Shown piece by piece: positions 8,566-58,825 of a stretch of DNA of 64,000 nt. Source of the stretch: Kaistella pullorum (GTDB lineage: Bacteria; Bacteroidota; Bacteroidia; Flavobacteriales; Weeksellaceae); the NCBI RefSeq assembly GCF_014837035.1, contig NZ_JACSPS010000001.1:862374-926373 (forward strand), given 5' to 3'. Within the stretch, counting starts at the first letter, position 1. Each line of letters begins with the position of its first letter. Position numbers and translations under genes: made by a program. The notes beneath the pieces are model-generated. The model was not told where the DNA came from. It made no database searches and saw only the letters and a program-made list of their open reading frames with translations.

Positions 8566-9423
8566 ATGATTGCCATTATAGACGGCGGCTCTACAAAATG
8601 TGACTGGGTTATTCTTGAAAATTCAGGCAAACTTAGCCTTCGGACCACCACGCTGGGCTTTAATCCGAACATTATAAATCCGGATTTTATTCCACAGGAA
8701 ATCAACCGCAATCAGGATCTGTTTTTTCTGAAAAATCATATCGAAAAAGTGTTTTTCTACGGTTCAGGCTGCGGAACTTCGCACAACTGCAAAAAAGTGT
8801 ATAAAGAGTTTTCTGAAATTTTTCCGAATGCAGAGGTTTCAGTTCGGGAAGATATGACGGCTGCAGCGTATGCCGCCTACAACGGATCACCCGCTATAGT
8901 TTGTATATTAGGCACCGGCTCGAACTCGTGTTTTTTTGATGGTGAAAGAATCCGGGTTGATCTGCCTTCACTCGGTTTTCTTATTGGTGACGAAGGCAGC
9001 GGGAGCGCGCTCGGAAAACAGTTGCTTCGCCGTTTCTTTATGAAAAAACTGCCTAAGGACCTGGAAGAGGATTTTAAACAGACGTATAATCTGACGATAG
9101 AGGAGGCCATCCAAAAAATGTATCACAACCCGAGAGCGAATGCATATCTGGGTGAATTTAACCAGTTTATTGCCAACCGCAGGAAGCACCCGTATTTTCA
9201 GAATATGGTGTTTGATGAAATGAAGAATTTCCTTGATTATCAGGTTCTCCCATATCCGGAAGCGAGGGAAGTAGAGGTGAACTTCATTGGGTATATTGCC
9301 TTCATTTATGAAGATATTCTGCGCTCAGCCGCCGCAGAACTCAATCTTAAAATAGGGAATGTAGTGCAGAAACCCATTGAAAGCCTTGTGAATTACCATA
9401 AAAAGTACATGCTGAATCTTTAA
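8566..9423 (+). CDS. BadF/BadG-type ATPase, N-acetylglucosamine kinase-like
   Basis: 285 residues of the ASKHA (hexokinase/actin) fold. Phosphate-1 loop is DGGSTKCDWVI at residues 6-16, phosphate-2 is ILGTGSNSC near residue 110, and FLIGDEGSGSALGK follows. Eukaryotic NAGK and bacterial BadF/BadG/BcrA proteins share these motifs. In Bacteroidota such single-domain proteins are generally annotated as N-acetylglucosamine kinases that phosphorylate amino sugars during cell-wall recycling. The adenosine motif is not clear by eye. No sugar gene lies nearby, so the substrate is inferred from the family only. It appears monocistronic, between the nifU terminator and maeB. Confidence 0.8.
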   Translation: MIAIIDGGSTKCDWVILENSGKLSLRTTTLGFNPNIINPDFIPQEINRNQDLFFLKNHIEKVFFYGSGCGTSHNCKKVYKEFSEIFPNAEVSVREDMTAAAYAAYNGSPAIVCILGTGSNSCFFDGERIRVDLPSLGFLIGDEGSGSALGKQLLRRFFMKKLPKDLEEDFKQTYNLTIEEAIQKMYHNPRANAYLGEFNQFIANRRKHPYFQNMVFDEMKNFLDYQVLPYPEAREVEVNFIGYIAFIYEDILRSAAAELNLKIGNVVQKPIESLVNYHKKYMLNL

Positions 9424-11783: not shown

Positions 11784-11801
11784 ACATTTAAAATAAAAAA
11801 A

Positions 11802-11830
11802 AACTGCGGGCAGTGTTCGCAGTTTTTTTT
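11802..11830. terminator. Bidirectional terminator between maeB and the 1294-aa gene
   Basis: Stem AACTGCG / CGCAGTT with a T tract on the plus side and an A tract before it, so it can serve maeB (plus) and the minus-strand operon that ends at 11895. Confidence 0.82.
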
Positions 11831-11894: not shown

Positions 11895-14800
11895 TCAGCA
11901 ATCCTCACAGCACACTTCCGTGATGCCCGTCAACTTGCTTGAGCGGTAAATCCGGTGTTGGCCAAGTAGGTCAGTTAACGGATTTAATGTACTTCGTGTG
12001 GCCAGATATTCTTCGATGTATGTGGCCTCTGACCCGCGTTTTGCGCCTTTGTCGAGTTGCCATTTGTTATCCATCGGGAAAATTTCCACCGCTATTGCGC
12101 TTATACTGTTGCTGCGCGGCAAACCAAGTGCTTCAAGCTTGTCACCGATTTCGCGTACAGATAATTTCGCTGTGCCCATTCGGTTTCCGTTTTCCTTTAT
12201 GTATCCACCGTCATTTATTTTAGATTTTTTAGGGCGGTAAGGCATCGGACCGGAATCAATTAAAATATTTCGAAAAGATTCACCATCTGCCTGCATCACC
12301 TGTGTATAAAGGGAATACCACAGTGAAGTGTTTGGTGGAAATGCGGTGATATTTTCTCCATTCAAGACTGCGCTTGCGTGTGGCGCGGAAAGTTCCACGT
12401 ATTTGTTTTTGCCAATTGGCGTTTTTATTTCACTTCGCACGGCGTGGCAAGCCAGTTCAGGTGCGGGATGCTGAACTCCGTTCACCTTCAGCGGTCTGCC
12501 ATAGCGTCCCTGTGCGGTGGCCCAAACTTCTTTCCGGTGACCAACGCGGATTTCATATGTAAAGAAACCGAAAAGCTCGTCGCTGGCGGAGTGTAGACCG
12601 GGTGGCAGTGGCAGCAAATAACGGGTGGCGTTCTCTTCTTCCTCCGGAATCAGTTCCTGCATCACGCCTATTCCGGCAAAATCATTAGTCATTCCCGGAA
12701 TTATTTCACGGATCTTTTCATCATTAATGTTGAACCGTTGATCTTCGGAAATATTTGAGATAAGTTCCCTGTCTACGCGGCACAGATACGGATCGGGTGA
12801 ATAGGCAAGTATTCGTGCGTAGTAAGTAGTGCGTGGATTTTCCGGAGCTTTATCAAATTCAAGCCAAAGGTATTTTTGCCTTTCGTCCGAATACCGGTAG
12901 TTTTCCCGGTCATATTGGTAAGGTGTAAGCGCCACGCCGGCAGAAACCAGTTTTGGTACCTGATGCGGAATTACCGTTACAGGCAGTTGAATGTTTAAAG
13001 TCTCAAATTCATCTGTCACTGTTTCTTCATTTTTAAAGTTGAGCTTAAGGCTGTATTCGGCAAAAAGTTCACGCGGAAAATTCTTTTGATATTTTTTAGG
13101 ATCTATTGAATCTAAAAACATCACGCGGGTAGTGGTTCTATCAGCATCCTGCAGCATCTGCATGTTTGCCGTATCTTTTAGCTGTACGCTGCCGATTTCC
13201 ATTAATTCAGTATCCGCGGCATGCACTTTTCGCATTACTGTGATGCTGTCGGGTTCGAATCCCTGCCATGACCAGTCGCGCAGTACGCTGAAATCTACAG
13301 CAATGATCCATCGGTTAAAGAGTTCATTTACAGAAGATAGAGTTACAGAGCCACTTTCGGGTGCCAAAGAATGCCGGATTTCATTATTCACCCCAAACTG
13401 CACGCGCTGGCCGGGCTCGCCCTGAAGTGTTAAGTTATGTGAACTTAAATCCAATGCTTCCGCTAATCTTTTTAATTCGGGTGCGGTGACATTCACCATG
13501 GTTTTGGTGGAGGCAAGTTTTAGCTTGTTATGTTCTGAAACTTCAGGTTTGCTTTCAGGCTGCAGGTAAAATGCCCGCAGGCCGCCTTTGATGGGTGAAA
13601 GCAGTTCCGGCTCTTCCTCAGCTGCTTTATACGCGTTCAGAGATAGCGGTGTTCCGGATGTCACGAATTTGGCTGCATAATCGTCATCCGCAAAATCTAC
13701 GATCGGAATGAAAGTTAGCCTTAAGTGCCGTGATGTCGGCAGTAACAGTTCATCTGCATCTTCGTCGCCTGTATAGTTGTTAAGTAAATCAAGTTGGTGG
13801 AAATCCTGGTAAACGATTTTGATACTCGCTGCTAAATCATAGTTTTCCGCGGCAAGATCTTTTGGTAGCGTAAATGTTTTTTCCTGCCACAAAATATAAG
13901 CTTCACGGCCGTTTTCCGAAAGCACGTTGTCCATTTCCAATGATTTCACTTCCACTAAAACTTTAAAACTGTTTACGTCAGGATCTGGCAGACCAATTGT
14001 CTGCTGAGAACGGTCTGCTGGGTCTGCCGGCACCGAAATTCCATTGATCTTATTTTTAAGAAGCTCACCTGCATCTTCATATTTTCCTGTATACGCCACA
14101 CTCGGATAGCTGAGGTCTGGTCTTTTTATCCTGAGTATGTTGTCTTCGTCCAAAATATTTTCCAGGACACTGGTATCCCTTACCAGGGACGATGTCTGCA
14201 TTCGTAAAAATTCATTGATGTTCGATATTTTCACCGCGCCAGCTTTGATATTTCTGCGGAAATGTGCTTGTGCAACAGATTTTTGACCCCCATTCAGCGG
14301 CTCGCTTTTAAGCTTTGGTGAACCTCCGGAAATGTCCATGAGGCGTATCCGAACTTCATAATCATGTCCATAGCGAAGCGCTACGGTTTGCTTGGGATCC
14401 TGATGGAATGGATGGAAATTTTTTTTAGGCTGAAGGTTTACCGCGTTTGTGCTGGCTAGGCCAGAAACCGCAACACGCGGCTTTTCCAAAAGGTGAATTT
14501 CCTGTGCCTCCCGGTCCGGAATCACCATGCACTTACCATTCCAGGCGGCAAAATACATAGGCAGCCAAAATCCTTCTTCCATTGTGTTGCCGTGCGAGGA
14601 CGGATGCACTTCGGTGGGAAGTTCAAAAGGCCTGTTCTGTGCAAAAAGCACTTCGCCATTCTGCATTTTGATATCCTGAGATGCCATCACTCGGTTTTGC
14701 GAAAACCAGGTGGAATCTCCAAGTTTCCTTATATCGACTTTATATCCGAAAACGCCGAGCGGCGCATCTATCGGCAAATCTGTAAGTTCATCTTTCTGCC

Positions 14801-15779
14801 GCAGTTGCCGGTTCCCCCAGATGGTCAGCTGCTCATCATCCCAACCTAATTGCAGACCTATATCTTTAAGCGGCGGATTAGTGGTATCTGATTCCTGCAG
14901 CAAATCCTGGTTTACAGGTTGGTTGGCATGCACGATTTTAGCAAAACCGTCATTGTACAAAATCGCCTCCTGCATCACCGCATCATAGGTTGCATTATTG
15001 GCCGCAATTTCCGTAACCGGAAAAAGAACTGGCGCAAAAAGCGTACGGTCGTTTTTCAACGCGGGTAGCCGCGCAGCGTAAATCGCGCAATGCGTTGTTC
15101 CAAATTCAGAGCCTGAACCAAATCTGGTGAAAAGCCATCCGCCTTTTTTGAAGACATCACCGGAAACCGGGATGCTGGCTTTGTATATAAGCCCGGCTTT
15201 TTCGGCTAGAACTGAATTTCGGAGGATAAACCCAACTAATTTTCCCCACGAGATGTACCGGCGGTCCGTCAGTTCGTCGGTTAGGTGTCTATCTTTGTTT
15301 TTAATTATACATTCATAAGAATCGTCTGTTACGGCAAATTTTGTTCGCGAACTCGTAAAATTGAACGAATTGCGGTAGGTTTGGGGCAGGTATTTTTTGA
15401 TTGCTACATTCTTTGTCGCATATTTCTGCGCCTGCGCGCGTGCCCCTGAATCTTTATTTAATGCTTGGTTTTCACTTATTTGCAGCCCGTCATTAGCTTC
15501 CATCTGGGCAATCACTTCATCTATCACCGCTTTTTTATTAACCGGAAGAATGGCTATCTGTGGCGTTTCCGTATGCGTGACGGTGGAAAATAAGGGCAGC
15601 CCGTCAAGCTGATTTATTATTTGGGTGTCGAACTGAAAAGTTGCGTCAACAAAAGCCGGTGCCCCGGAGGGCAAAGGGTTCCGAAGGTTGATATTTCTCG
15701 GAAGTACTACAATGTTGAAATGAAGCCGGCCTTCACTGAAATGTTGCGGAAAAGTGAGAATGCTATAAATTGGTTCCAT
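11895..15779 (-). CDS. Very large protein of unknown function (1294 aa)
   Basis: I do not recognise this family. The frame is intact over 1294 residues, starting MEPIYSILTFPQHF, without signal peptide or membrane segments, so it looks cytoplasmic or exported by a non-Sec route. It is rich in short beta-type stretches and acidic loops; no catalytic motif of a known enzyme class is visible. The N-terminal 150 residues contain LHFNIVVLPRNINLRNPLP; the middle has RYGHDYEVRIRLMDISGG and LRLTFIPIVDFADDD; the extreme C-terminus ends TEVCCEDC, a compact three-cysteine tail that could bind metal or form disulfides. It starts 27 bp after the stop of the 1627-aa gene and is surely the second gene of a two-gene operon. 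Codon use looks like its neighbours. The two genes most likely act together. Confidence 0.8.
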   Translation of the reverse strand: MEPIYSILTFPQHFSEGRLHFNIVVLPRNINLRNPLPSGAPAFVDATFQFDTQIINQLDGLPLFSTVTHTETPQIAILPVNKKAVIDEVIAQMEANDGLQISENQALNKDSGARAQAQKYATKNVAIKKYLPQTYRNSFNFTSSRTKFAVTDDSYECIIKNKDRHLTDELTDRRYISWGKLVGFILRNSVLAEKAGLIYKASIPVSGDVFKKGGWLFTRFGSGSEFGTTHCAIYAARLPALKNDRTLFAPVLFPVTEIAANNATYDAVMQEAILYNDGFAKIVHANQPVNQDLLQESDTTNPPLKDIGLQLGWDDEQLTIWGNRQLRQKDELTDLPIDAPLGVFGYKVDIRKLGDSTWFSQNRVMASQDIKMQNGEVLFAQNRPFELPTEVHPSSHGNTMEEGFWLPMYFAAWNGKCMVIPDREAQEIHLLEKPRVAVSGLASTNAVNLQPKKNFHPFHQDPKQTVALRYGHDYEVRIRLMDISGGSPKLKSEPLNGGQKSVAQAHFRRNIKAGAVKISNINEFLRMQTSSLVRDTSVLENILDEDNILRIKRPDLSYPSVAYTGKYEDAGELLKNKINGISVPADPADRSQQTIGLPDPDVNSFKVLVEVKSLEMDNVLSENGREAYILWQEKTFTLPKDLAAENYDLAASIKIVYQDFHQLDLLNNYTGDEDADELLLPTSRHLRLTFIPIVDFADDDYAAKFVTSGTPLSLNAYKAAEEEPELLSPIKGGLRAFYLQPESKPEVSEHNKLKLASTKTMVNVTAPELKRLAEALDLSSHNLTLQGEPGQRVQFGVNNEIRHSLAPESGSVTLSSVNELFNRWIIAVDFSVLRDWSWQGFEPDSITVMRKVHAADTELMEIGSVQLKDTANMQMLQDADRTTTRVMFLDSIDPKKYQKNFPRELFAEYSLKLNFKNEETVTDEFETLNIQLPVTVIPHQVPKLVSAGVALTPYQYDRENYRYSDERQKYLWLEFDKAPENPRTTYYARILAYSPDPYLCRVDRELISNISEDQRFNINDEKIREIIPGMTNDFAGIGVMQELIPEEEENATRYLLPLPPGLHSASDELFGFFTYEIRVGHRKEVWATAQGRYGRPLKVNGVQHPAPELACHAVRSEIKTPIGKNKYVELSAPHASAVLNGENITAFPPNTSLWYSLYTQVMQADGESFRNILIDSGPMPYRPKKSKINDGGYIKENGNRMGTAKLSVREIGDKLEALGLPRSNSISAIAVEIFPMDNKWQLDKGAKRGSEATYIEEYLATRSTLNPLTDLLGQHRIYRSSKLTGITEVCCEDC

Positions 15780-15806
15780 GGTAATTGATTTTAATAAAAA
15801 CTGCAG

Positions 15807-18800
15807 TTAGCTGATCTGACGTGTTTCTTCCCAGGTTTCAGTGAAGCTGATGTTCACCACAAACGCAATGGAAATATCAAGCGCGAAGGTGCACCTTGCG
15901 ATACAGTTTGTAGGTCCGCCACCGATTTTTTTCTGAACCTCGCCCGCAGCTTCAATTGAAATAGTGATTGTTACGATGCCACCTAAAATCTCTGCACGAC
16001 CACGGAAATAGATGAATGCACCTACCACAATATCGCCCGAAATCTTCATGTCTATTCCCACGATAAAAGTGACGGCTACTGAACCAATCACCGGAAGACC
16101 TACAGCCAGTTCTACACCGAAGCCAAATTTAAAATAGAGAGCCGGAGGTGACGATAGGTCTGCCGCCAGGCCTACTTCTGCACGTCCAATCGCGTAGATA
16201 GTTGCGGCCGCCACACTTACACACATCACGCGTATATCTGCGCCAAGCTCCAGATACGCACCTACCGAGGGCTTTATTTGGTCGATAGTTTTTGGAATTT
16301 TAATTGGCTGGTTAAAATAGACACCTACTTTGAAGTACGCGTCCATTTTCAGTGGTGTTGTCGGGGAGTTGTAATTGATGGGATCAAAAGGAAATTTCAC
16401 CAGTGGAATCTCTTTGTCGGCTTTAAATTTATATTCCCAGCTGTCCGCGGAATTACTCATCGCGATTTTCAATGCTTTTTTCACGGCTTCGGACGGCTGC
16501 GTAGGATCAAGATTATTCAGGAATTCCAGAATGTCGTAAATCTTCTGCAGGGTTTTGTCAAGTTTAAGCTGAGGTCCGCTTCCAATGGCCATTCCGGCAT
16601 TTTTCTTTTTCGCGTTGCTGAAGTTTCCGGAAATGTACATCAGCGGTGCAAAACCTGCCAGATCAACTGCAATCGTGATGTTATGCATCTGGTTAGCCCA
16701 TTTTTCGATGGATTTGGAATCTGTTACATAATCGATTATAGATTCATTGGTGTTAGCCCCCTCTTCGTCAATTGCGGTATATTTAATATAAATCCTGAAA
16801 GCGTCACCTGGCTCGCCAACGATATCAAAACCGAAATTCGTCGGGACGGTATACTTGAAAACTTTTTGCACGCCATCCGGCAAAAGTGTCATTGTGGTTT
16901 TGGCCAGATTATCGATTTTAATAGCATCGGCAAGGTTCGGAAACGGTCCTTTTGAATTCATCAGCCGGAAACAATCAGCTAGCAATGCCGGGTCTGAAGT
17001 GTATTTTTCGATTTCACCTTTTGTATACTCAATGGAATTCAGCAGCAATTTCTGTGTATCGGTATTTTGAAGAAAGCCGTAGGTTTTACTAAATGTTGCA
17101 GCCGTATTTTTTAATGAATCAGGATATGCTAAAAGTGTTTTTGTGGTATTCAGGCTGAACGGTGCGCCGCTGTTTTTCGGCCGAAGGCCGTCTTTTATCA
17201 AACCAACGGAGGTTCCGGGCGCCAGATTTTGTACCGAACCCGAATTTTTATCAACATCCACCACACTCCAGCTTCCGTCTGCCGGCAGAACCGGCGATCC
17301 TTTTACCGATGCCACGAAGGCAGGCTGGGAAGTATTATCGTTTTGGTAGGATGCGGACATTTCCACCGCCGTTGTTTTAAACTTTTGCAGGGTCTTTTCT
17401 ACAGATAAAATAGAGTCAACTGTGCCACTTACGGGGTTTTGGCTTTTATTTAAAATAGCTTTAAGTATACGCGCCGGAACCGGAACTCCCTGTGGTTTGA
17501 TCTGCAGATAACCTTTGAACTGGGTTCCTGTAATATTTTCGTCTAATGGCTGCAAGTCTACGTCACAGTCAAAATAAACGGCCACAAATTCATAATCAAC
17601 CTTGCGGCCTGGTGCAGAAGCTAACACAATCGGCACACTTTCATCCAGAAAATATTCGTTGCCCAGCGTCGTGTATTGTCCGCTGATGACGTCCGTATAA
17701 TCTTCCCGGATGTTTTTCACTTTATACAATCCTTCCACAATTCCCGGATAGATGTCGTATGGATTATTAAATGCTAAAGTTTCTGTCGCGGTCGGCCACG
17801 TAAAACTGAAATCGAAGAGGCCTTCGCTTTGTGCTAACCAGCCACTGTCTTCACGGAAGATCACTGCATTATTGTTGCGCCGGAAGGTGACCGTACGCGT
17901 TACGCAGATTCCCCAGGGGTAGATGACGCTCACGGCCTGCACTATTTCGTGTGCCGTACGCCCTTTCATGACGTCAAATTTGGCCTGTGAGATTGACGCG
18001 AACTTTACTGCAGGATTTTTCCAGTTGCTGAAGGTACTCGCGCCATAGCCGGAAAAATCGAAATGGGTGAGCGGAACTCCGCGCGGCTTCTGTGGGGTAA
18101 AAACGCTGTTGAAAATTTCGGTAACGGTTTTTCCCAGTATGCTGATTCCCGGCTGATTGGTGATTGCCTCAAGCTGTTTCGTAAGGCCTTCCATACGCGG
18201 CGGCGCTTCAGGATTGGGATCTTTATATGCAGCGATCCTAAACTGTATTCCACCACGAAGTTTTTGGTTTTGGAACTTAAAATCGGGCTGAATAAATTCA
18301 AGATGACCGTTGCTGTGCATCGGTTCATTTTTATAAGGATACAGCGTAGCAAAAGAATATTTGGCATTCGGTAGAGTAAACAGCACTTTTCCGACCAGCT
18401 GTTGGTTCATCATGCCCGAACCGTTGAGATTGGCTTTGAACTGACGCATATAATCCGCCGGATGAATCCGCACCCAGTGATTATCTGTTTGGCTGAAAAC
18501 GGTGGGTAAAGTATTCGGGGTTTGGTTTAATATGCCGAGATCCGGATCCGGAACTGGCGGATCACCCGGATTAATTGGTGCTGGTCTTGGCGTGATATTG
18601 TTTACAGGTTCCCAACTCACATTCGGTAAGGTGAGTCCCTGCAGAAAACCCATCGGAGCCTGCAGATAATTTCGGTTGACAGTAACTACATTTTCGCCCG
18701 TCACCGTTACATCATCACGGTAAAGTTTACGCATCTCCTCACGGTTTTGAAGTGAGAGCGCAACACCCCAATGGTCAGCCTGTGTACTTACGTCAAACAG

Positions 18801-20690
18801 CATGAAGTTGTTCTGTATTGCCGGAACTCCACGGATAAACGAACGTTCAGCGGTTGCCGAAAAGGCAGTGTTGGTAGGCTCCGCAAATGTATAGTTCATT
18901 TTAAACGTAACTTCTGCCAATGCAGTCCTGTCGATGGTATTCCAATTGGTGATGGCCTGCAGAGAACCTACAATCTGATCCCGACCTTGGCGGTCGTTTT
19001 TCAGATTGGTTGTGTAAGGGTGTGGCAGCGTGGGAAGTAGCGACAGGATGTAAAAATTGAGAAGCAAAGTAGCTTCGTAGATTTCGTTTTCATCCGTGTA
19101 TTTGCCAGTCAGATACAGCCCGCTTTCTTTAGTTGTGGTGAAATATGCATTCTGCAGGGCAAACTGATATTTTTCAAGTTTATTATTGGCCTGGTTTGTA
19201 TTGACAGTTGTATTCTGAAGATTTTCCGTGAGCATATCACTGTCGATGATCAGAATGTTTTTGGCGTTTTTACTCTGAATTTTGCTGTACAGACTTTTTT
19301 TTGAGACCGGATGAACCGGCGTATTATCGGCGTGAAGTGGTTTGTCTATAAAAAATTCGGTATCTGCAAAGCTGCTTACAACATCTCCCGTATCGCTCTG
19401 TGAGGCAATATTCAAAGTTTTATAATTCATCAGCCGGACATCAAGTGTCATCCGGTCTTTGTTCTCCGCAGATTTTTGCCATAACGTGAGATGGTCGCGC
19501 AGGTAAGCAAAATCAGTATTTTCAGAGGATAAATAAATCAGTCCATTCAAAACCATCAAAGTGCAGTTGTTCAGTTGTGCCTCTGAATTTTGGTTCCGAA
19601 CACCGTCCCATGTTGCGGTGAGTCCTTTCTTTAAGCCTATTGAAAGTAAGCCGTTGAACTTCAGTTCAATGGATTGGTTATTCTGGAGAACGCGCGTCGG
19701 CAAAAGCCATGTTGCAGTTTCAATACGTGCTTGTCCGGAGAGTGAGTACAATACTGAATTTGATTTCCGAACAGTAAATTTTTCCTGGTTTGGCGTAAGC
19801 GTAAGACCTAAATATTTTTGAACAGGGTCCCAGGCCAGCGAGTGGTCTGTTGAGGTGAATCCACATTCCCAATCCAATGTTTTTACCGTGAAATTTCGGG
19901 TTTCCAGCACTAACAGTCTTGCGAAGTTTGTTTTTAAATGCAACCTGTCTGTAGGCAGAAACGTGGAGTTTTTTCCGTCTATTCCCACGGATTCCTCCGG
20001 CGGTGAATAGGAATTGTCCAGCATAAAATCAGCATCAAATATCGAGGCACGTGGTACCTGGATGCTATTATTGTCTAAAATATGAGATCCTCCTAAGCCC
20101 AGCGTCCCCGAAAGTATCCGTAAGCCGACATAAGTTGTGACCGGCGCGGCAGGATCCAGCAAGTCTGCACGGATCCACACATTTCCTGCAACCAATGTTA
20201 ATGTACTTGCTCGCGGGTTAGCAGCCAGCAAACGCGGAATTTTAACCGGAATTATGAATGCGGCTCGTGCCTCGCCCGGGAAAAAAACTTTAAAGTCATC
20301 TATGAGTTTATAAAGATTGTACAAAATAGGTGGACCGTCCAGCGTGGGGAAGGGACCGAGAATTTTATCGGGAACGGTAAAGACTTGGTTGGCATCGAAG
20401 ATTTGGTGTGCACCGAAACGCATGGAATTTTCGGGTAGTTTTTCAATTTCGAACTCCGGTTTGGGAGTTGACGCCGCGCGAGTAGGGTTCGGGACCGTTA
20501 GGAAGTCGCGCAGTCGGTTCGTGCTGAACGGTAGCTTGGACGCCCGTATTTCCTGGAAGTTAGTCGGGGAAAGATTTGATTTTTCGATGGTTTCGAGCAG
20601 AAACTCAAGATGTTCAGGCTGGTTTTGCTTCGCAGCAGCCAAGTCTAAATCCTGCAACAATAGTGTTGCAGATTTTACAGGATCTGGCAT
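15807..20690 (-). CDS. Very large protein of unknown function (1627 aa) with beta-rich C-terminus
   Basis: I do not recognise this family. It starts MPDPVKSATLLLQDLDLAAA, has no signal peptide and is unbroken. Residues 1-60 look helical. A proline-rich linker (INPGDPPVPDPDLG) lies near residues 697-720 and splits it into two halves. Roughly the last 190 residues alternate small/hydrophobic and polar residues, such as GAYLELGADIRVMCVSVAAA, LYFKFGFGVELAVGLPVIGS and ISGDIVVGAFIYFRGRAEIL, ending ETWEETRQIS. That pattern suits amphipathic beta-hairpins, such as a pore, barrel or fibre-like sheet. It contains CIARC near the end. First gene of a two-gene minus-strand operon with the 1294-aa gene; a candidate promoter lies at 20829-20836. 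Function unknown; structural partner or toxin-like roles are guesses only. Confidence 0.8.
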   Translation of the reverse strand: MPDPVKSATLLLQDLDLAAAKQNQPEHLEFLLETIEKSNLSPTNFQEIRASKLPFSTNRLRDFLTVPNPTRAASTPKPEFEIEKLPENSMRFGAHQIFDANQVFTVPDKILGPFPTLDGPPILYNLYKLIDDFKVFFPGEARAAFIIPVKIPRLLAANPRASTLTLVAGNVWIRADLLDPAAPVTTYVGLRILSGTLGLGGSHILDNNSIQVPRASIFDADFMLDNSYSPPEESVGIDGKNSTFLPTDRLHLKTNFARLLVLETRNFTVKTLDWECGFTSTDHSLAWDPVQKYLGLTLTPNQEKFTVRKSNSVLYSLSGQARIETATWLLPTRVLQNNQSIELKFNGLLSIGLKKGLTATWDGVRNQNSEAQLNNCTLMVLNGLIYLSSENTDFAYLRDHLTLWQKSAENKDRMTLDVRLMNYKTLNIASQSDTGDVVSSFADTEFFIDKPLHADNTPVHPVSKKSLYSKIQSKNAKNILIIDSDMLTENLQNTTVNTNQANNKLEKYQFALQNAYFTTTKESGLYLTGKYTDENEIYEATLLLNFYILSLLPTLPHPYTTNLKNDRQGRDQIVGSLQAITNWNTIDRTALAEVTFKMNYTFAEPTNTAFSATAERSFIRGVPAIQNNFMLFDVSTQADHWGVALSLQNREEMRKLYRDDVTVTGENVVTVNRNYLQAPMGFLQGLTLPNVSWEPVNNITPRPAPINPGDPPVPDPDLGILNQTPNTLPTVFSQTDNHWVRIHPADYMRQFKANLNGSGMMNQQLVGKVLFTLPNAKYSFATLYPYKNEPMHSNGHLEFIQPDFKFQNQKLRGGIQFRIAAYKDPNPEAPPRMEGLTKQLEAITNQPGISILGKTVTEIFNSVFTPQKPRGVPLTHFDFSGYGASTFSNWKNPAVKFASISQAKFDVMKGRTAHEIVQAVSVIYPWGICVTRTVTFRRNNNAVIFREDSGWLAQSEGLFDFSFTWPTATETLAFNNPYDIYPGIVEGLYKVKNIREDYTDVISGQYTTLGNEYFLDESVPIVLASAPGRKVDYEFVAVYFDCDVDLQPLDENITGTQFKGYLQIKPQGVPVPARILKAILNKSQNPVSGTVDSILSVEKTLQKFKTTAVEMSASYQNDNTSQPAFVASVKGSPVLPADGSWSVVDVDKNSGSVQNLAPGTSVGLIKDGLRPKNSGAPFSLNTTKTLLAYPDSLKNTAATFSKTYGFLQNTDTQKLLLNSIEYTKGEIEKYTSDPALLADCFRLMNSKGPFPNLADAIKIDNLAKTTMTLLPDGVQKVFKYTVPTNFGFDIVGEPGDAFRIYIKYTAIDEEGANTNESIIDYVTDSKSIEKWANQMHNITIAVDLAGFAPLMYISGNFSNAKKKNAGMAIGSGPQLKLDKTLQKIYDILEFLNNLDPTQPSEAVKKALKIAMSNSADSWEYKFKADKEIPLVKFPFDPINYNSPTTPLKMDAYFKVGVYFNQPIKIPKTIDQIKPSVGAYLELGADIRVMCVSVAAATIYAIGRAEVGLAADLSSPPALYFKFGFGVELAVGLPVIGSVAVTFIVGIDMKISGDIVVGAFIYFRGRAEILGGIVTITISIEAAGEVQKKIGGGPTNCIARCTFALDISIAFVVNISFTETWEETRQIS

Positions 20691-20798: not shown

Positions 20799-20836
20799 GA
20801 TATATACATTGTTATATATCTTTAAAAACAAAGTTA
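20799..20836 (-). promoter_or_regulatory. Candidate promoter and inverted repeat of the giant-gene operon
   Basis: On the minus strand TAACTTTG (20829-20836) matches TAnnTTTG. Just downstream of it lies a perfect inverted repeat GATATATA (20799-20806) / TATATATC (20813-20820) with a 6-nt spacer, near the expected transcription start. It may be an operator or a 5'-UTR hairpin. The leader to the start codon is then about 110-130 nt. No clear -33 element is seen. The rest of the 212-bp gap holds no gene. Confidence 0.5.
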
Positions 20837-20902
20837 GGTGTTTTAGGTAATACGTTGTAAATATTCCTTTAAGTAGTGCGAAAATTGCGTGAAATCACCT
20901 GA

Positions 20903-35572: not shown

Positions 35573-35644
35573 GGCCTATTCGTCTAGTGGTAAGGACTCA
35601 AGATTTTCATTCTTGCAACAGGGGTTCGATTCCCCTATAGGCTA
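35573..35644 (+). tRNA. tRNA-Glu (anticodon TTC)
   Basis: A full cloverleaf of 72 nt without encoded CCA. Acceptor GGCCTAT pairs with ATAGGCT (first pair G-T). D arm GTCT/GGAC. Anticodon stem CAAGA/TCTTG has the loop TTTTCAT, whose anticodon is TTC. The T arm is AGGGG / CCCCT with TTCGATT loop. Lies 60 bp after the amidase and before rpsT. Confidence 0.95.
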
Positions 35645-35682
35645 CTAAAGAATAGAAAATTTAGAAAAAAAAGAAAATATAT

Positions 35683-35712
35683 TTTGTAACTTAAAAAGAT
35701 TTTATATCTTTG
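35683..35712 (+). promoter_or_regulatory. Consensus promoter of rpsT
   Basis: TTTG (35683-35686), an 18-nt spacer and TATCTTTG (35705-35712), the best match to the flavobacterial consensus in the window. rpsT starts 21 bp later. Confidence 0.75.
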
Positions 35713-35733
35713 CACCCAAGTTTTTAAAAGGAT

Positions 35734-35988
35734 ATGGCAAATCATAAATCAGCGCTGAAGAGACTCAGACAAAACGAAAAGAAGAGACTAAGAAACAGAT
35801 ACTATCATAAGACTGCTAGAACAGCTTTGAAGGTACTGCGTAATGAAGAGGATAAGACTGCTGCTACAGAGCAATTGCCAAAAGTAATCTCTTTGTTGGA
35901 TAAATTGGTGAAGAAAAACATTATCCACAAAAACAAAGCGGCTAACTTAAAAAGCAAATTAACTAAGCACGTTAACAAACTGGCTTAA
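35734..35988 (+). CDS. rpsT: 30S ribosomal protein S20
   Basis: 84 residues, rich in Lys/Arg and helix forming: MANHKSALKRLRQNEKKRLR at the N-terminus is the S20 hallmark, and KNIIHKNKAANLKSKL ends the second helix. S20 binds 16S rRNA in the body of the small subunit. The gene lies between two tRNA-Glu genes and 18 bp before the second tRNA, so they are probably one transcript. Confidence 0.97.
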   Translation: MANHKSALKRLRQNEKKRLRNRYYHKTARTALKVLRNEEDKTAATEQLPKVISLLDKLVKKNIIHKNKAANLKSKLTKHVNKLA

Positions 35989-36005
35989 TTATATAAAAAG
36001 CGTCC

Positions 36006-36077
36006 GGCCCGTTCGTCTATCGGTTAGGACCTCAGATTTTCATTCTGGTAAGAGGGGTTCGATTCCCCTACGGGCTA
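36006..36077 (+). tRNA. tRNA-Glu (anticodon TTC), second gene
   Basis: 72-nt cloverleaf. Acceptor GGCCCGT / ACGGGCT, anticodon stem TCAGA/TCTGG with loop TTTTCAT (anticodon TTC), T arm AGGGG / CCCCT. It differs from the first copy in the acceptor, the D loop and the anticodon stem, so this is not a recent duplicate. Lies 17 bp after rpsT and is followed by a strong terminator. Confidence 0.95.
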
Positions 36078-36079
36078 CA

Positions 36080-51754: not shown

Positions 51755-54700
51755 TTGGAGAAGAATACTTTTTTTCAGCATAAATTTTTCGTTTTTGTAA
51801 TCCTGTTATTCTGCTCTGTTCCGCTTTCGGCCCAGGTAACGCCATCAGACAGCTCGTCTTTGCGTCAGGATTTTTCATTGCCCAATCCTATCAGGTACGA
51901 TGCATTTTACGATGTATCAAGCAATATGTACGTGCTTTACCCGAAAATCGGGAATATGGTTGTAGGCAATCCGGTTTCAATGACTTCGGAAGAGTATTAC
52001 CAGTATATGCTGAATAATCAGCTTGCCGAATATTACCGCGAAAAATCTTCCGTAAATAATTTAGGCTACCGAAAAGATAAGACCGATGCGCTGAGTAAAG
52101 GTCTTCTGCCAAGTGTAAACATTAAAAACAAACTTTTCGAATCCATATTTGGCGGCAATAAAATCGAATTGATCCCCCAGGGTTTTGCTTCATTTGATAT
52201 TGGCGGACTTTACCAAAAAATTGACAATCCGTTAATCCTGCCTCAAAACCGAACCAATTTCGCGATAGATATCCAGCAAAGAATTCAGCTCGGACTTTTG
52301 GGTAAGGTGGGTGAAAATCTTCAGCTTAAAGCAAACTACGATACACAAAGCGGTTTCGCATTTGAAAACCGGATGAATCTCGTTTGGCAAGCCAAAGGAA
52401 CCTGGCGTGACTTGCAGTCTAAGGGTTTAAATGACAAAACCACGGGCGGTGAAGATAAAATCATCAAACGTATCGAGTTCGGAAACGTAAACATGCCGCT
52501 TTCCACGAGCCTCATCAGAGGTTCGGAGTCGCTTTTTGGTTTAAAGACCGAATTTCAGCTCGGCAAAACCTACGGAACCGTAGTTTTCTCGCAGCAGCAG
52601 GGTGAGGCCCGAACCATCGTGGCGCAGGGTGGAGGCGTGATGAATACGTTCAAACTCAATGCGATAGACTACGAAGACAATCAGCACTATTTCCTGAGCC
52701 ACTACTTTCTGAACAGCTACGATAATGCGCTGCTAAACTATCCGCAAATCAATTCCCGCATCAGCATTACGCGTATCGAAGCGTGGGTTCTTGATCAGGG
52801 TTCGGGTAATCTTCAGGATCAAAAAGGGATTTTGGGCATCCGGGATTTGGGTGAAGGCGTATCTGGTTTTCCTGATAACTCACAGAACGGACTTTATCAG
52901 GGAATCGTGAATCTTGGTGGTGGAATCCGGGATGTGAATACGGCTTACAACACCATCAACGGACAGTCTTTTCCTAATGCCAACGGCTCACCGGAAACTT
53001 ATACAGACGGCGAACAGTTTATTTTCAACCGTAAAGCCCGAAAACTTAACCAAAACGAATTTAAATATCATCCGCAGCTCGGTTATATGTCTTTGAATCA
53101 AAGGCTGAATGACAATCAGCTGCTGGCGGTCGCATATTCTTACACCTTAAATGGTGATAACAAAGTTTACAAAGTCGGGGAATTTTCGGAGGAAAGTCCG
53201 GTTCTTGTCACTAAGCTATTAAAATCAAACATCAAAACCACAACTACAACACCGATGTGGAACTTGATGATGAAAAATATCTACTCGCTGAACTCGAACG
53301 ATATCAATCAGGATGGATTTTTATTAAATGTTTACCTGCGCGATGCCCAAAACGGAAAAGTGAATTATCTGCCGAACACCTCTGTTCAGGACACTAATTT
53401 GCTTAAACTTTTCAATTGGGACCGTCTCAACATGAACAATGACCTGCAGCAGAACGGTTCTGTATCGGGTGACGGTATTTTTGATTTTGTTCCGGGTATC
53501 ACTATCGATCCCGAAAACGGAAAAGTGATCTTCACCAAAGCCAAACCGTTCGGATCTTATCTGCAAGGTGTTTTAGGCAGCAGCGATCCGAAATTTGTGT
53601 TCAATGAACTTTATGACCAGTTTAAGAATGTAGCCTCAGAAAACCGTCTGGCACTGGCATATACACTTGAAGGACGTTTCAAAGGTTCTCAGGGAACCGG
53701 CATTTCTCTGGGCGCGATTAACGTTCCGCAGGGTTCGGTGAAAGTTACAGCCAATGGCGTTCAGCTTCAGGAAGGTGTAGATTATACGGTAGATTATATG
53801 CTCGGTTCGGTGAATATCATCAATGAAACGGTGAAACAGTCGGGTCAGGCGATTAATATTTCCCTCGAAAACCAGCTTTCATTCAATACACAGCGTAAAC
53901 GTTTTTTAGGCTTGAACCTCGAACGTAAATTTAATGAGCATCTTACGGTTGGAACTACAGTGGTGAATTATGCCGAAACACCGTTAACACAAAAAGTGAA
54001 TTTCGGTCAGGAAGCGGTGAATAACACCATGGCTGGTTTCAATATCCTTTATAACAATCAGTTGCCATTCCTCACGAGACTTACAGACAAAATTCCGCTT
54101 GTAAATACGGAAGCGCCTTCCAATATTAGTTTTGCCGCAGAAGCAGCGTATCTGATCCCGGGTCAGAACAAAGGTATTGGTGACCAGTCTTATATTGACG
54201 ATTTCGAACAGACCACTTCAAAAATATCTTTGAAAGAACCTGCGATGTGGAGTTTGGCTTCAAAACCTGAAAAAAATCCGGAGCCTTACTTCCAGAATGG
54301 GACTTTGAACGATAACTTAGCGTACGGGAACGGTCGCGGATTGATTACGTGGTACAATATTGACCCGCGTTTCTACGGAATTGGCGGCACCGCGCCAAGC
54401 GGCATCAATGCCCAGGCGGTTTCGAACCACGCTTCACGCCGCGTGCAGACGCAGGAACTTTATAATTCGAGGGATTTCGTGGCGGGCGAACAACTGTTCA
54501 CGAATACTTTCGACATAACTTATTTCCCGGCGGAAAGAGGTCCTTATAACGTAAATCCGGTTGAAGAAAGCACACAGCAGCGCTGGGCCGGACTTATGCG
54601 CCCAATTTCGGTTTCGAATTTCATTAATTCAAACATTGAATACGTGGAATTCTGGATGATGGATCCGTATGCTGACGGCAACCCGCTTGGTGCCAATCCT

Positions 54701-57700
54701 AAACTTTTGCTTCAGCTCGGGAATGTTTCTGAAGATATCCTCAAGGACGGCAAACTGCAATACGAAAATGGCTTGCCAACGCCGAATGTACCGGCAAATA
54801 CAACAACCACGAACTGGGGAACACAGCCGAACCAATTCCCTGTTCTCTATGCATTCTCTACTGAAAATGAAGAAAGAACAGCGCAGGATTTAGGTTTTGA
54901 TGGTCTTGATGCACTTGGCGAGCAGGAAAAATTTGGCACCAATTTCATCAATCCTGTAAAGAACACGCCCGATCCGGCCTCAGATGACTTCGTTTTTTAT
55001 CTTTCAGATAAATTCCAGGGTGTTCAGGCATCATCGCTGACGGAACGTTACAAATATTTCCGCAACCCGGAAGGAAACTCCCAGAGCAACAGCCTCGAAG
55101 TAGCCACGCAAACACCGGATGCTGAAGATATCAACCGCGATTACAACCTTGACCAGAACGAAAATTATACGCAATACACCATTAATCTTGATAAGGCCAG
55201 TCTTGCAAAAGGTCAGAAATTCATCGTAGATGAAAAAGAAGTGGAGGTAAAATTCCAGAACGGGCAGACGGGCAGCAACAAATGGTACCTCTTCCGGATC
55301 CCTGTGACGCAGTTCGATGACGACCCGAATGCCGGTGGCGTGCGTGATCTGTCAATATTAAATAATGTACGTTTTGCGAGAATGCTTCTTACAGGTTTTG
55401 ACCAAACTTCTACGGTTCGTTTCGGAACTTTAGACCTTGTTCGCAGCGATTGGAGAAAATACACCAAAGACATCGCGGCCTTAGGAAATGACAGCGAAGG
55501 TGTAAACCAGATCGACAATAAAAATCTGGATGTAGGAAGTGTGAATCTTGAAGAAAACGGCCTGAACCAGCCGCCATACGTCTTGCCTCCGGGAATCGAC
55601 AGACAGATCCTCAGTGGAAATGCCGGCGCACAGAGACAGAACGAAGCATCATTATATTTAAAGGCGGCGCCGATGGAACCGAAAACGTCACGTGGTGTGT
55701 TCAAAAATGTTGCACTGGATATGCGCCGTTACAAAAAACTTGAGCTTTTCGTGCATGCGGAAGACCTTCGTGATGTGAGCAGCAGCCGGGTTGATCCTGA
55801 TGCCAAATTCTTCATCCGTTTTGGTAGCGATGCGACGGACAACTATTATGAATATGAAACTTCGCTGAAATACACCGCGAAAAACGCTACTTCACCGCTT
55901 GAAATCTGGCCTTCTGAAAACAATGTGGATCTTATGATTCAAAGTTTCGTGGATGCAAAACTTCGCCGCGACGGAAATGACCAGATTCAGATCGATGAAA
56001 GAACAGAAGATTTCAAATTCGGAAGTTTGGATCCGGATAAGAAGATCTTCATCAAAGGTCGCCCAAGTCTCGGAAATGTAACGACTATTATGCTCGGGAT
56101 GCGAAACAACGCCACAGCCGAAACAAAAGAAGTAGTTTTGTGGGTGAATGAGATCCGGCTTTCGGAAATCGAAAACAAAGGTGGCTACGCCGGAAACGCA
56201 AGCCTTAATTTCAATCTTGGGGATTTTGCACTGGTAAACGCTAACGCGTCTTACTCTACAATCGGCTTTGGAGGAATCACTGAAAAGCCGGCGGAAAGGG
56301 CACAATCTACCTTATCAGCTTACAACGTAAACACTACGGTGAACGTAGATAAATTCCTGCCGGAAAAATTAGGGATAAAAATTCCGGTGAATTACTCCTA
56401 TACGCAGACCATCGAAGATCCAAAGTACAACCCACTTGATAATGATGTGACCTTCGAGGAGGCGCCAAACAAAGACGAACTGAAAACTGTCGCGCGAACT
56501 TACACGCAGCAGCGAAGCATAGGTGTGGTGAACATGCGCAAAGAACGTATGAATGCCGCCAAAAAACCGAAATTCTATGACGTGGAGAATCTTTCACTTA
56601 CTACGGTTTATAATGACGATTATTACCGTGACGTTTATACCAAGAAAAACTATAGACAATATCTTCGCGGCTATGTAGATTACAACTACAATTTCAAACC
56701 ATGGGTGCTCCGTCCGTTTAACAAAATCGTAAGCGATACCGCGAAATCTTACAAATATTTAAGGTTTATTAAAGAAGTCAACTTTAATCCGGTTCCGACG
56801 CGCTTGTCCTTCAGAACAGAAATTGACAGGAATTATAACGAGCTTGAATTCAGGAATATTGAAGCCATATTAAACGGAACCGGCGGACAGAATTTCGATG
56901 TGATCAAAAACCGGAATTTCTATTTCGGCTGGCAGTATGGTTTAGGATTTAATTTTACTAAATCTCTGAAACTTGAGATCAATTCGGCCATGCGTACGCT
57001 GAACGATCACCTCAACGTGGCGGATATGAACTCGAAATCGATATTCTCTGATCCGTTGCGTGCAGGCCGTCCGGTACTTTACAACCACCGCGTGCAGCTG
57101 AACTACCGCTTCCCGTTCGAATATTTGCCGTATCTCGACTTTATCAACGCAGAACTCGGCTATGGATTCACCTATAACTGGAATGCGCGGAGTACAGTGA
57201 TGACAGGCTTTACGAATCCGGAAACCGGTATCAGTGAAAGCTTGGGAAGCATTGGGCAGAATACAAATAATGTGGTTGCAACTTCAACTGTTGATGTGCC
57301 TAAATTCTTCAGTAAGTTTAAATATTTCCAGAATATCAACGCCACGATGCAGAAACGCAAGCAGGAAATAGATTCCCTGAACAATGTTTACAACCTTGCG
57401 TGGCAGAAGAAAAATTCGAAACGGAACTTCAAATCCTACAAGTTTAAAAACAAACTGAACCCCATGCAGAGCATCGCGTATGCATTGACTTCGATAAAAC
57501 AGCTTGACATTTCGTACAACGAAAACAACGGGACTGTGCTTCCGGGACTGCTTTCTGCGCCAAACTGGTATGGTTACGGCCAGACTTTGGGAGGCCCGAC
57601 GTACGGATTCCTTTTAGGTTCGCAGGCGGATATCCGCAGAACGGTAATTGAAAACGGCTGGATCTCAGATTCTCCGTATATGAATGATCCGTACACGCAG

Positions 57701-58825
57701 CTGAAGAACCAAAACTTCCTCGCGAATGTGCAGATCGTGCCTGTGAATGAGTTCAGGATTGATGTAAATTTCCTTAAAAATTACAACAGCATCTTCACGC
57801 AGGGCGGTTATAATGTGGATGCAGATTCTAATCCGGCGAACGGTTTCCAGTTCTCTTTCGGTACGGATATGATCACGTATTCGCGCACTGCATGGACATT
57901 CGGAACGGCGTTCCAGGACGGCACAAACATCTACGAAACGATGGTGAATAACGCCCGCCAGATTTATCAGCAAACGGGTGCGTCCTACAACGAAGCTGAG
58001 TTTGCAGCCGGAAAAGGTCTTGGCAATGCGTATATTTTGATTCCGGCCTTCCAGGCGGCAATCGAAGGTAAATCTGTAAACGGTGAGCTCACGGATCCTA
58101 AAAAATCCGGCTTCCCGCTGCCGAACTGGCGTGTGACGTATTCAGGGCTTAAAAATATCCCGTTGGTGAACAGCCAGTTCTCTAAATTCGATATTCTTCA
58201 CGGCTACAGTTCTACTTACACCGCTTCCGGGATCCAGTCGAGCGTTGACTATTATAACCTTCAAAACAATGCGGATGCGCCGAGATTTGATACTTTCGGG
58301 AATGAATTTAATCCGTACACGTTCTCGCAGGTCGGTTATGTGGAAACTTTCGCACCACTTATCGGTGCTGACGTTACCATGCGGAACAACATGCAGTTCC
58401 GTGCGCAGTATAACCGTGACCGTATGTATATGCTCGGACTCATCAATCATACTCTCACCGAAGACGCGGGTAATGAGTATATCGTAGGTTTTGGTTATAT
58501 ACTGAAAGATTTGAAGATGAAAATCAACTTTAAAGGTAAGGCCCGAAACATCAAGAGTGACCTCAATATCCGCGGAGATTTCTCACTTAGAGACAGCCAA
58601 ACACGCATCACGAACATCCTGCAGAATGATTCTCAGGTGACGGGCGGACAGCGTATGATGAGCGTGAAAATTTCGGCGGACTATAATATGTCGCAGAATT
58701 TTAATCTAAGGTTTTTCTACGACCAGCTGCTCACGAAGTATAAAATTTCGACCTCCTTCCCGCTATCAACAATTCGGGCCGGAATATCGGCCACATTCAC
58801 CTTCTCGGGTGCAGGCGGATTTTAA
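51755..58825 (+). CDS. sprA: SprA, type IX secretion system outer membrane translocon
   Basis: 2356 residues, about the length of SprA of other flavobacteria. TTG start immediately after ruvA gives MEKNTFFQHKFFVFVILLFCSVPLSAQ, a signal peptide. The mature protein is a single very large barrel with long loops; recurring motifs include DGVDYTVDYMLGSVNI and RYKKLELFVHAED. SprA forms the 36-strand channel through which T9SS exports gliding adhesins, enzymes and toxins carrying C-terminal signals. It is likely required for gliding or surface-protein export. The ruvA-sprA neighbourhood is, from memory, conserved in Flavobacteriia. Closed by a terminator at 58833. Confidence 0.95.
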   Translation: MEKNTFFQHKFFVFVILLFCSVPLSAQVTPSDSSSLRQDFSLPNPIRYDAFYDVSSNMYVLYPKIGNMVVGNPVSMTSEEYYQYMLNNQLAEYYREKSSVNNLGYRKDKTDALSKGLLPSVNIKNKLFESIFGGNKIELIPQGFASFDIGGLYQKIDNPLILPQNRTNFAIDIQQRIQLGLLGKVGENLQLKANYDTQSGFAFENRMNLVWQAKGTWRDLQSKGLNDKTTGGEDKIIKRIEFGNVNMPLSTSLIRGSESLFGLKTEFQLGKTYGTVVFSQQQGEARTIVAQGGGVMNTFKLNAIDYEDNQHYFLSHYFLNSYDNALLNYPQINSRISITRIEAWVLDQGSGNLQDQKGILGIRDLGEGVSGFPDNSQNGLYQGIVNLGGGIRDVNTAYNTINGQSFPNANGSPETYTDGEQFIFNRKARKLNQNEFKYHPQLGYMSLNQRLNDNQLLAVAYSYTLNGDNKVYKVGEFSEESPVLVTKLLKSNIKTTTTTPMWNLMMKNIYSLNSNDINQDGFLLNVYLRDAQNGKVNYLPNTSVQDTNLLKLFNWDRLNMNNDLQQNGSVSGDGIFDFVPGITIDPENGKVIFTKAKPFGSYLQGVLGSSDPKFVFNELYDQFKNVASENRLALAYTLEGRFKGSQGTGISLGAINVPQGSVKVTANGVQLQEGVDYTVDYMLGSVNIINETVKQSGQAINISLENQLSFNTQRKRFLGLNLERKFNEHLTVGTTVVNYAETPLTQKVNFGQEAVNNTMAGFNILYNNQLPFLTRLTDKIPLVNTEAPSNISFAAEAAYLIPGQNKGIGDQSYIDDFEQTTSKISLKEPAMWSLASKPEKNPEPYFQNGTLNDNLAYGNGRGLITWYNIDPRFYGIGGTAPSGINAQAVSNHASRRVQTQELYNSRDFVAGEQLFTNTFDITYFPAERGPYNVNPVEESTQQRWAGLMRPISVSNFINSNIEYVEFWMMDPYADGNPLGANPKLLLQLGNVSEDILKDGKLQYENGLPTPNVPANTTTTNWGTQPNQFPVLYAFSTENEERTAQDLGFDGLDALGEQEKFGTNFINPVKNTPDPASDDFVFYLSDKFQGVQASSLTERYKYFRNPEGNSQSNSLEVATQTPDAEDINRDYNLDQNENYTQYTINLDKASLAKGQKFIVDEKEVEVKFQNGQTGSNKWYLFRIPVTQFDDDPNAGGVRDLSILNNVRFARMLLTGFDQTSTVRFGTLDLVRSDWRKYTKDIAALGNDSEGVNQIDNKNLDVGSVNLEENGLNQPPYVLPPGIDRQILSGNAGAQRQNEASLYLKAAPMEPKTSRGVFKNVALDMRRYKKLELFVHAEDLRDVSSSRVDPDAKFFIRFGSDATDNYYEYETSLKYTAKNATSPLEIWPSENNVDLMIQSFVDAKLRRDGNDQIQIDERTEDFKFGSLDPDKKIFIKGRPSLGNVTTIMLGMRNNATAETKEVVLWVNEIRLSEIENKGGYAGNASLNFNLGDFALVNANASYSTIGFGGITEKPAERAQSTLSAYNVNTTVNVDKFLPEKLGIKIPVNYSYTQTIEDPKYNPLDNDVTFEEAPNKDELKTVARTYTQQRSIGVVNMRKERMNAAKKPKFYDVENLSLTTVYNDDYYRDVYTKKNYRQYLRGYVDYNYNFKPWVLRPFNKIVSDTAKSYKYLRFIKEVNFNPVPTRLSFRTEIDRNYNELEFRNIEAILNGTGGQNFDVIKNRNFYFGWQYGLGFNFTKSLKLEINSAMRTLNDHLNVADMNSKSIFSDPLRAGRPVLYNHRVQLNYRFPFEYLPYLDFINAELGYGFTYNWNARSTVMTGFTNPETGISESLGSIGQNTNNVVATSTVDVPKFFSKFKYFQNINATMQKRKQEIDSLNNVYNLAWQKKNSKRNFKSYKFKNKLNPMQSIAYALTSIKQLDISYNENNGTVLPGLLSAPNWYGYGQTLGGPTYGFLLGSQADIRRTVIENGWISDSPYMNDPYTQLKNQNFLANVQIVPVNEFRIDVNFLKNYNSIFTQGGYNVDADSNPANGFQFSFGTDMITYSRTAWTFGTAFQDGTNIYETMVNNARQIYQQTGASYNEAEFAAGKGLGNAYILIPAFQAAIEGKSVNGELTDPKKSGFPLPNWRVTYSGLKNIPLVNSQFSKFDILHGYSSTYTASGIQSSVDYYNLQNNADAPRFDTFGNEFNPYTFSQVGYVETFAPLIGADVTMRNNMQFRAQYNRDRMYMLGLINHTLTEDAGNEYIVGFGYILKDLKMKINFKGKARNIKSDLNIRGDFSLRDSQTRITNILQNDSQVTGGQRMMSVKISADYNMSQNFNLRFFYDQLLTKYKISTSFPLSTIRAGISATFTFSGAGGF

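Follow-up and report, generated by a model that had tools for sequence, protein, structure and literature searches.

A conserved two-gene module of giant proteins in Kaistella pullorum, with relatives across bacterial phyla

The window, a stretch of 64,000 nucleotides from Kaistella pullorum, contains between positions 11895 and 20690 two very long neighbouring genes, which raises the question of what kind of unit, if any, their giant products form. The first gene of the pair is called A and the second B, and their counterparts in a distant branch of relatives are called A'/B' and A''/B''. The first-pass annotation had described two intact frames in tight tandem, and this description holds: on the minus strand A is followed by B with a spacing of 27 bp, and both frames are open over the coordinates in Table 1. 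Selection for function, which it had also suggested, is borne out by a codon-position pattern of purifying selection on both genes. In comparison with the relative L014, 14% of the second codon positions in A and B are changed, as are 57–58% of the third; dN is 0.20 for A and 0.19 for B, and dS is saturated. Over 664 codons of the adjacent malic-enzyme-like gene dN amounts to 0.06, so that the pair evolves about three times faster; purifying selection on the pair is weaker than on this neighbour. Base composition at the locus is ordinary, and Rfam gave no match between positions 9000 and 24000. The housekeeping character of the surroundings is a judgement by eye, and SprA is the one neighbour with an identity from a search.

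Table 1. Positions in the window of the gene pair and its associated features
Feature	Position	Strand	Description	Basis
Gene A	15807..20690	-	1627 aa, first of the pair	Open frame; relatives with B downstream
Gene B	11895..15779	-	1294 aa, second of the pair	Open frame; 169 relatives in one scan
Most conserved block of A, residues 878-951	17838..18059	-	SGYGAS..SNW ... GRTAHE ... YPWG	Invariant columns, 28-sequence alignment
Amphipathic beta pattern of A, residues 1470-1622	15825..16283	-		Beta moment; profile match to A'
Stretch common to B and B', B residues 170-520	14220..15272	-		hhalign 97.5%, E 6.6e-12
C-terminal cysteine tail of B	11898..11912	-	CCEDC	Comparison of readable B ends
Two-way terminator hairpin	11796..11830 (about)	both		z -5.5 on each strand
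Candidate promoter of the pair	20829..20861	-		Reading by eye against a Bacteroidota-type consensus

The pair was further thought to have a shared bidirectional terminator and a promoter of its own. The former is supported by the hairpin located 3' of B, which folds on both strands and has no entry in the consensus terminator scan. The latter is a candidate: the sequence upstream of A can be read by eye as a Bacteroidota-type promoter, but the consensus promoter scan showed no excess of sites (10 against 14.8 in shuffles).

Neither protein could be assigned to a known family. No match to A or B was found in Pfam, NCBIfam, PADLOC (2023 models) or the PDB at E up to 1, PHROGs returned chance-level matches only (E 0.2–0.36), and with profiles of A and B no PDB match appeared at E up to 10. 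When 28 relatives of A and 32 of B were scanned singly, only isolated Pfam matches at E 0.03 or worse were obtained. These libraries and the protein starts, read by eye, agree with the earlier view that neither protein has a signal peptide or an assignable motif, and features of type 9 secretion cargo were likewise absent, with no Pfam sorting-domain match and no signal peptide by eye. A relationship between A and B themselves was ruled out (hhalign 0.3%). Literature searches found nothing on the pair, so the earlier suggestion of an undescribed system stands within the libraries and literature searched. Judged by the absence of a sequence link to known kinds in the libraries tried, the pair would appear to be of a new kind.

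To ascertain how the two genes are distributed, a scan for B was performed that matched 268 stretches, of which 169 encode a B relative and 80 were kept; together with plasmid and family loci these gave 92 loci, of which four were second copies of the same contig, leaving 88 distinct. A is present at 85 of these, in all 85 cases on the strand of B and upstream of it. The gap between the two genes has a median of 26 bp and falls within 400 bp at 79 of the 85. Six loci have wider gaps. A or B occupies more than one frame at four of them (L012, L029, L041 and L101), and the other two, L043 and L088, show spacings of 765 and 540 bp. At two of the three B loci without A (L087 and L100) B begins at the contig end, and the third (L013) holds a B fragment. 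The linkage of the genes, which the first-pass annotation had proposed to check, holds wherever both are visible. In a family sample A occurs in nine of 246 genomes, with B beginning directly after it in all nine, and the pair is therefore accessory. Strong B matches are present in 10 of 395 genomes of the phylum, two of them partial or split over contigs, and strong A matches fall in the same ten; one further genome of this set, G455, carries an A remnant without B. No third gene recurs across lineages in the flanks examined, and the neighbouring genes vary by lineage, the largest recurring clusters being a mixed two-component and regulator cluster (20 loci) and Algoriphagus synteny. A and B are a real two-gene module.

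Trees of A and B, built from 78 loci and the window, have 69 of 76 splits in common. Among well-supported splits, 63 of 69 in the A tree are found in the B tree and 61 of 63 in the B tree are found in the A tree, and pairwise distances correlate at r 0.956, a value reached by none of 2000 shuffles. The B tree mixes Bacteroidota, Acidobacteriota, Pseudomonadota, Cyanobacteriota, Ignavibacteriota and Chloroflexota, and a Thermodesulfobacteriota locus is also among the 80 kept. Joint transfer of both genes between bacteria would be the natural reading of trees that are congruent and mixed in phylum. The site occupied in the window lies after an outer-membrane-protein gene that is present in all 36 genomes of the genus. 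Within the stretch read, A follows this gene at three of 30 loci (the window, G110 and G158), the remainder showing other sequence or a contig end; in G155, of the same genus, the pair lies about 2.7 kb away from it. In genus relatives without the pair it looks, by eye, as if an rRNA operon follows the outer-membrane-protein gene. Directly downstream of that gene, G143, G105 and other genomes of the genus show either the contig end or rRNA-like frames by eye.

A far branch of the module was recognized when eight genomes in the phylum set of 395 gave weak B matches (E 6e-11 to 6e-4), located inside frames of about 1400 aa. A large frame lies directly upstream of B' in all six of the eight loci that were examined, that of L104 being cut by the contig start. 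Profile comparison with hhalign linked B to B' over the stretch given in Table 1, with 97.1% in other alignments, and A to A' at 92.6% (E 4.5e-7; 85.9% in other alignments), while controls of A against B and of crossed pairs stayed below 0.5% and reversed profiles reached at most 1.6%. The most conserved block of A has its motif in the same place in A', but the match falls short of significance (2.6%, E 0.017). When plasmids were searched with the pair of L106, A' had matches in 15 records and B' in 14. The A''/B'' proteins of rhizobial and Ruegeria plasmids match A'/B' at 100%, but their scores with the window's branch are low (B'' 14.7%, A'' 0.5%), and the link to it therefore runs via A'/B'. 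They are the largest of the far branch, with 3039–3311 aa for A'' and 1766–1899 aa for B''. Hosts include rhizobia, Streptomyces, Cupriavidus and others, and on plasmids of Rhizobium, Sinorhizobium, Agrobacterium, Ruegeria, Diaphorobacter and Streptomyces the pairs are annotated as 'hypothetical protein'. The far branch resembles the pair of the window in having two giant genes with the order A' then B' kept, the B 170–520 stretch in B' and the C-terminus of A in A'. It differs in that A' often bears a twin-arginine (Tat) motif, several A' proteins have a long coiled-coil stretch, and the B' ends read lack the cysteine tail. Apolipoprotein-like and other matches of A' fall inside the coiled-coil stretch below curated cut-offs and were discarded as noise.

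Within A, the C-terminal residues 1470–1622 have a beta moment of 1.39, compared with 0.75 (sd 0.09) in shuffles, none of 2000 of which reached it, and this region lies inside the stretch 1327–1627 that is common to A and A'. Its alternation of hydrophobic and polar residues would be as in a membrane barrel or a lipid-binding sheet. The rest of A, and B, show a mild beta lean on a crude scale. An LRYG..Y..R.R..DI.G-type motif in the stretch common to B and B' resembles, by eye, a fibronectin-type strand. Two of the 88 B ends are cut; all 86 that are readable have a cysteine near the end, as CC in 74 and as CCxxC in 66.

The Tat motif was located by motif scan in 10 of 15 A' proteins with an intact start (L103, L105, L106, L107, L111, L113, L114, L115, L116 and L148), where starts were taken mechanically or as annotated. 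It is absent from L102, L112, L117, L149 and L150, and the start of L104 is cut. The Ruegeria A' protein matches the Pfam TAT_signal model below cut-off (17.6 against 22.7 bits). No twin-arginine motif was seen by eye at the B' starts read. On plasmid pC of S. meliloti an annotated TatA/TatE gene of 55 aa (L111:28856-29023) begins 50 bp after B''; a motif scan found no TatA-type gene at the other 15 of the 16 far-branch loci. In the hitchhiker mechanism a partner without a signal is co-exported by the Tat system with one that bears it. The far branch is alike in carrying the motif on one partner only, and Tat export of A' with B' riding along would be a fair model there. The cargo would be far larger than in the hitchhiker cases known to us. 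The window's branch differs in lacking the motif, which occurs in none of 80 long A frames (four of them second copies from one genome), and for this branch a Tat export model is not supported.

Constant gene order and congruent trees suggest that A and B may act as one complex, as the first-pass annotation had inferred; the structural or effector role that it also proposed may or may not apply. The reading we prefer, at somewhat under even confidence, is that they form a complex of two subunits that includes an amphipathic beta module and serves as an accessory machine of the envelope or of contact. The proteins would be obligate subunits of one large complex, expressed as one operon and transferred among bacteria as an accessory unit of two genes. 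Beta domains of both would build a scaffold, the amphipathic end of A might enter or bind a membrane or hold a hydrophobic ligand, and the cysteine tail of B could bond covalently or through a metal. A' of the far branch would carry the Tat signal and B' would be exported with it as a folded complex; since no Tat signal was seen in the window's branch, the complex there would remain inside or exit by another route. This proposal is favoured by the uniform order and strand at 85 of 85 loci, the spacing within 400 bp at 79 of them, the congruent trees, the mixing of phyla, the strong A and B matches in the same ten of 395 genomes, the retained order of A' and B' in the far branch, the amphipathic end of A and the Tat motif on 10 of 15 A' proteins with an intact start. 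Counted against it are the lack of that motif in all 80 window-branch A frames and in five of 15 A' proteins, the TatA gene at a single one of 16 far-branch loci, the mild beta lean and the A remnant without B in G455.

A patchy, mobile pair with an amphipathic beta end and, in the window's branch, no signal peptide might also act as an antagonistic effector, for instance by forming pores; cell lysis would release it, or Tat in the far branch, and the end of A would enter a target membrane. We consider this unlikely, as the C-termini of both proteins are conserved rather than variable, no third gene that could give immunity recurs in the flanks examined, and the pair has no relatives in phage records or viral contigs, where 87 pattern matches yielded no confirmed relative. 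The central block of A, in which numerous R, E, D, W and G residues are invariant across 28 sequences, would suit a novel two-subunit enzyme in which the invariant polar residues are catalytic. That too seems improbable given that no enzyme family is matched in the libraries searched, that size and beta lean fit scaffolds, and that the neighbours share no pathway. It is a distant prospect that the pair defends against phages or plasmids as an undescribed module: the mobile two-gene unit, the annotated DpdE-H genes beside an A. vitis plasmid copy, and STAND-, TIR- and patatin-like genes recognized by eye at L037 speak for it. No 2023 PADLOC model of a known anti-phage system matches A or B, however, and no general link to defence genes appears among the first 25 families listed for the neighbours (89 downstream, 84 upstream). 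The pair shares mobility, patchiness and a small number of genes with polymorphic toxin and toxin-antitoxin modules, but A and B are giant, their ends are conserved and no immunity or antitoxin gene recurs; a polymorphic toxin system was rejected on the conserved C-termini and the lack of a recurring downstream gene. Genes of a phage or a phage-derived particle were dismissed on the same phage and viral searches.

Beyond the two-subunit complex of the window, a broader proposal is more doubtful, namely that the module represents an ancient, hitherto undescribed superfamily of giant two-subunit complexes in at least eight phyla (seven in the window's branch, to which the far branch adds Actinomycetota). 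Tat would export the complex of one branch intact, with a dedicated TatA at one locus, and the window's branch would work without that signal. If this were true, the far-branch complex would be among the largest Tat cargoes. That two genes spanning nearly 9 kb have stayed open and linked and are shared across phyla points to a useful function, and no library tried names them. Tat dependence, which rhizobia would allow to be assayed, offers a direct experimental handle on the far branch, and soil and water bacteria that are easily grown carry the window's branch.

Several neighbouring genes were recorded. Members of one mixed regulator cluster lie 2–177 bp after B on the opposite strand at L049, L052, L063, L090 and L093, which fall in one clade of the pair tree, and the LuxR-type GerE model was matched by six of 89 downstream proteins. 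Patatin-like phospholipase genes are found near the pair at L112 (annotated) and at L037 and L071 (by eye). Catalase-type genes near two plasmid copies do not repeat among the families listed and were attributed to chance. An SrpI-like encapsulin shell gene adjoins the pair at one locus (one of 89 downstream proteins). Elsewhere in the window, a 2356-aa frame at 51755-58825 (+) matches SprA of type 9 secretion and gliding (6h3i) over nearly its full length and is unrelated to the pair, and two tRNA-Glu (TTC) genes at 35573-36078 (+) surround a small gene that by eye resembles ribosomal protein S20.
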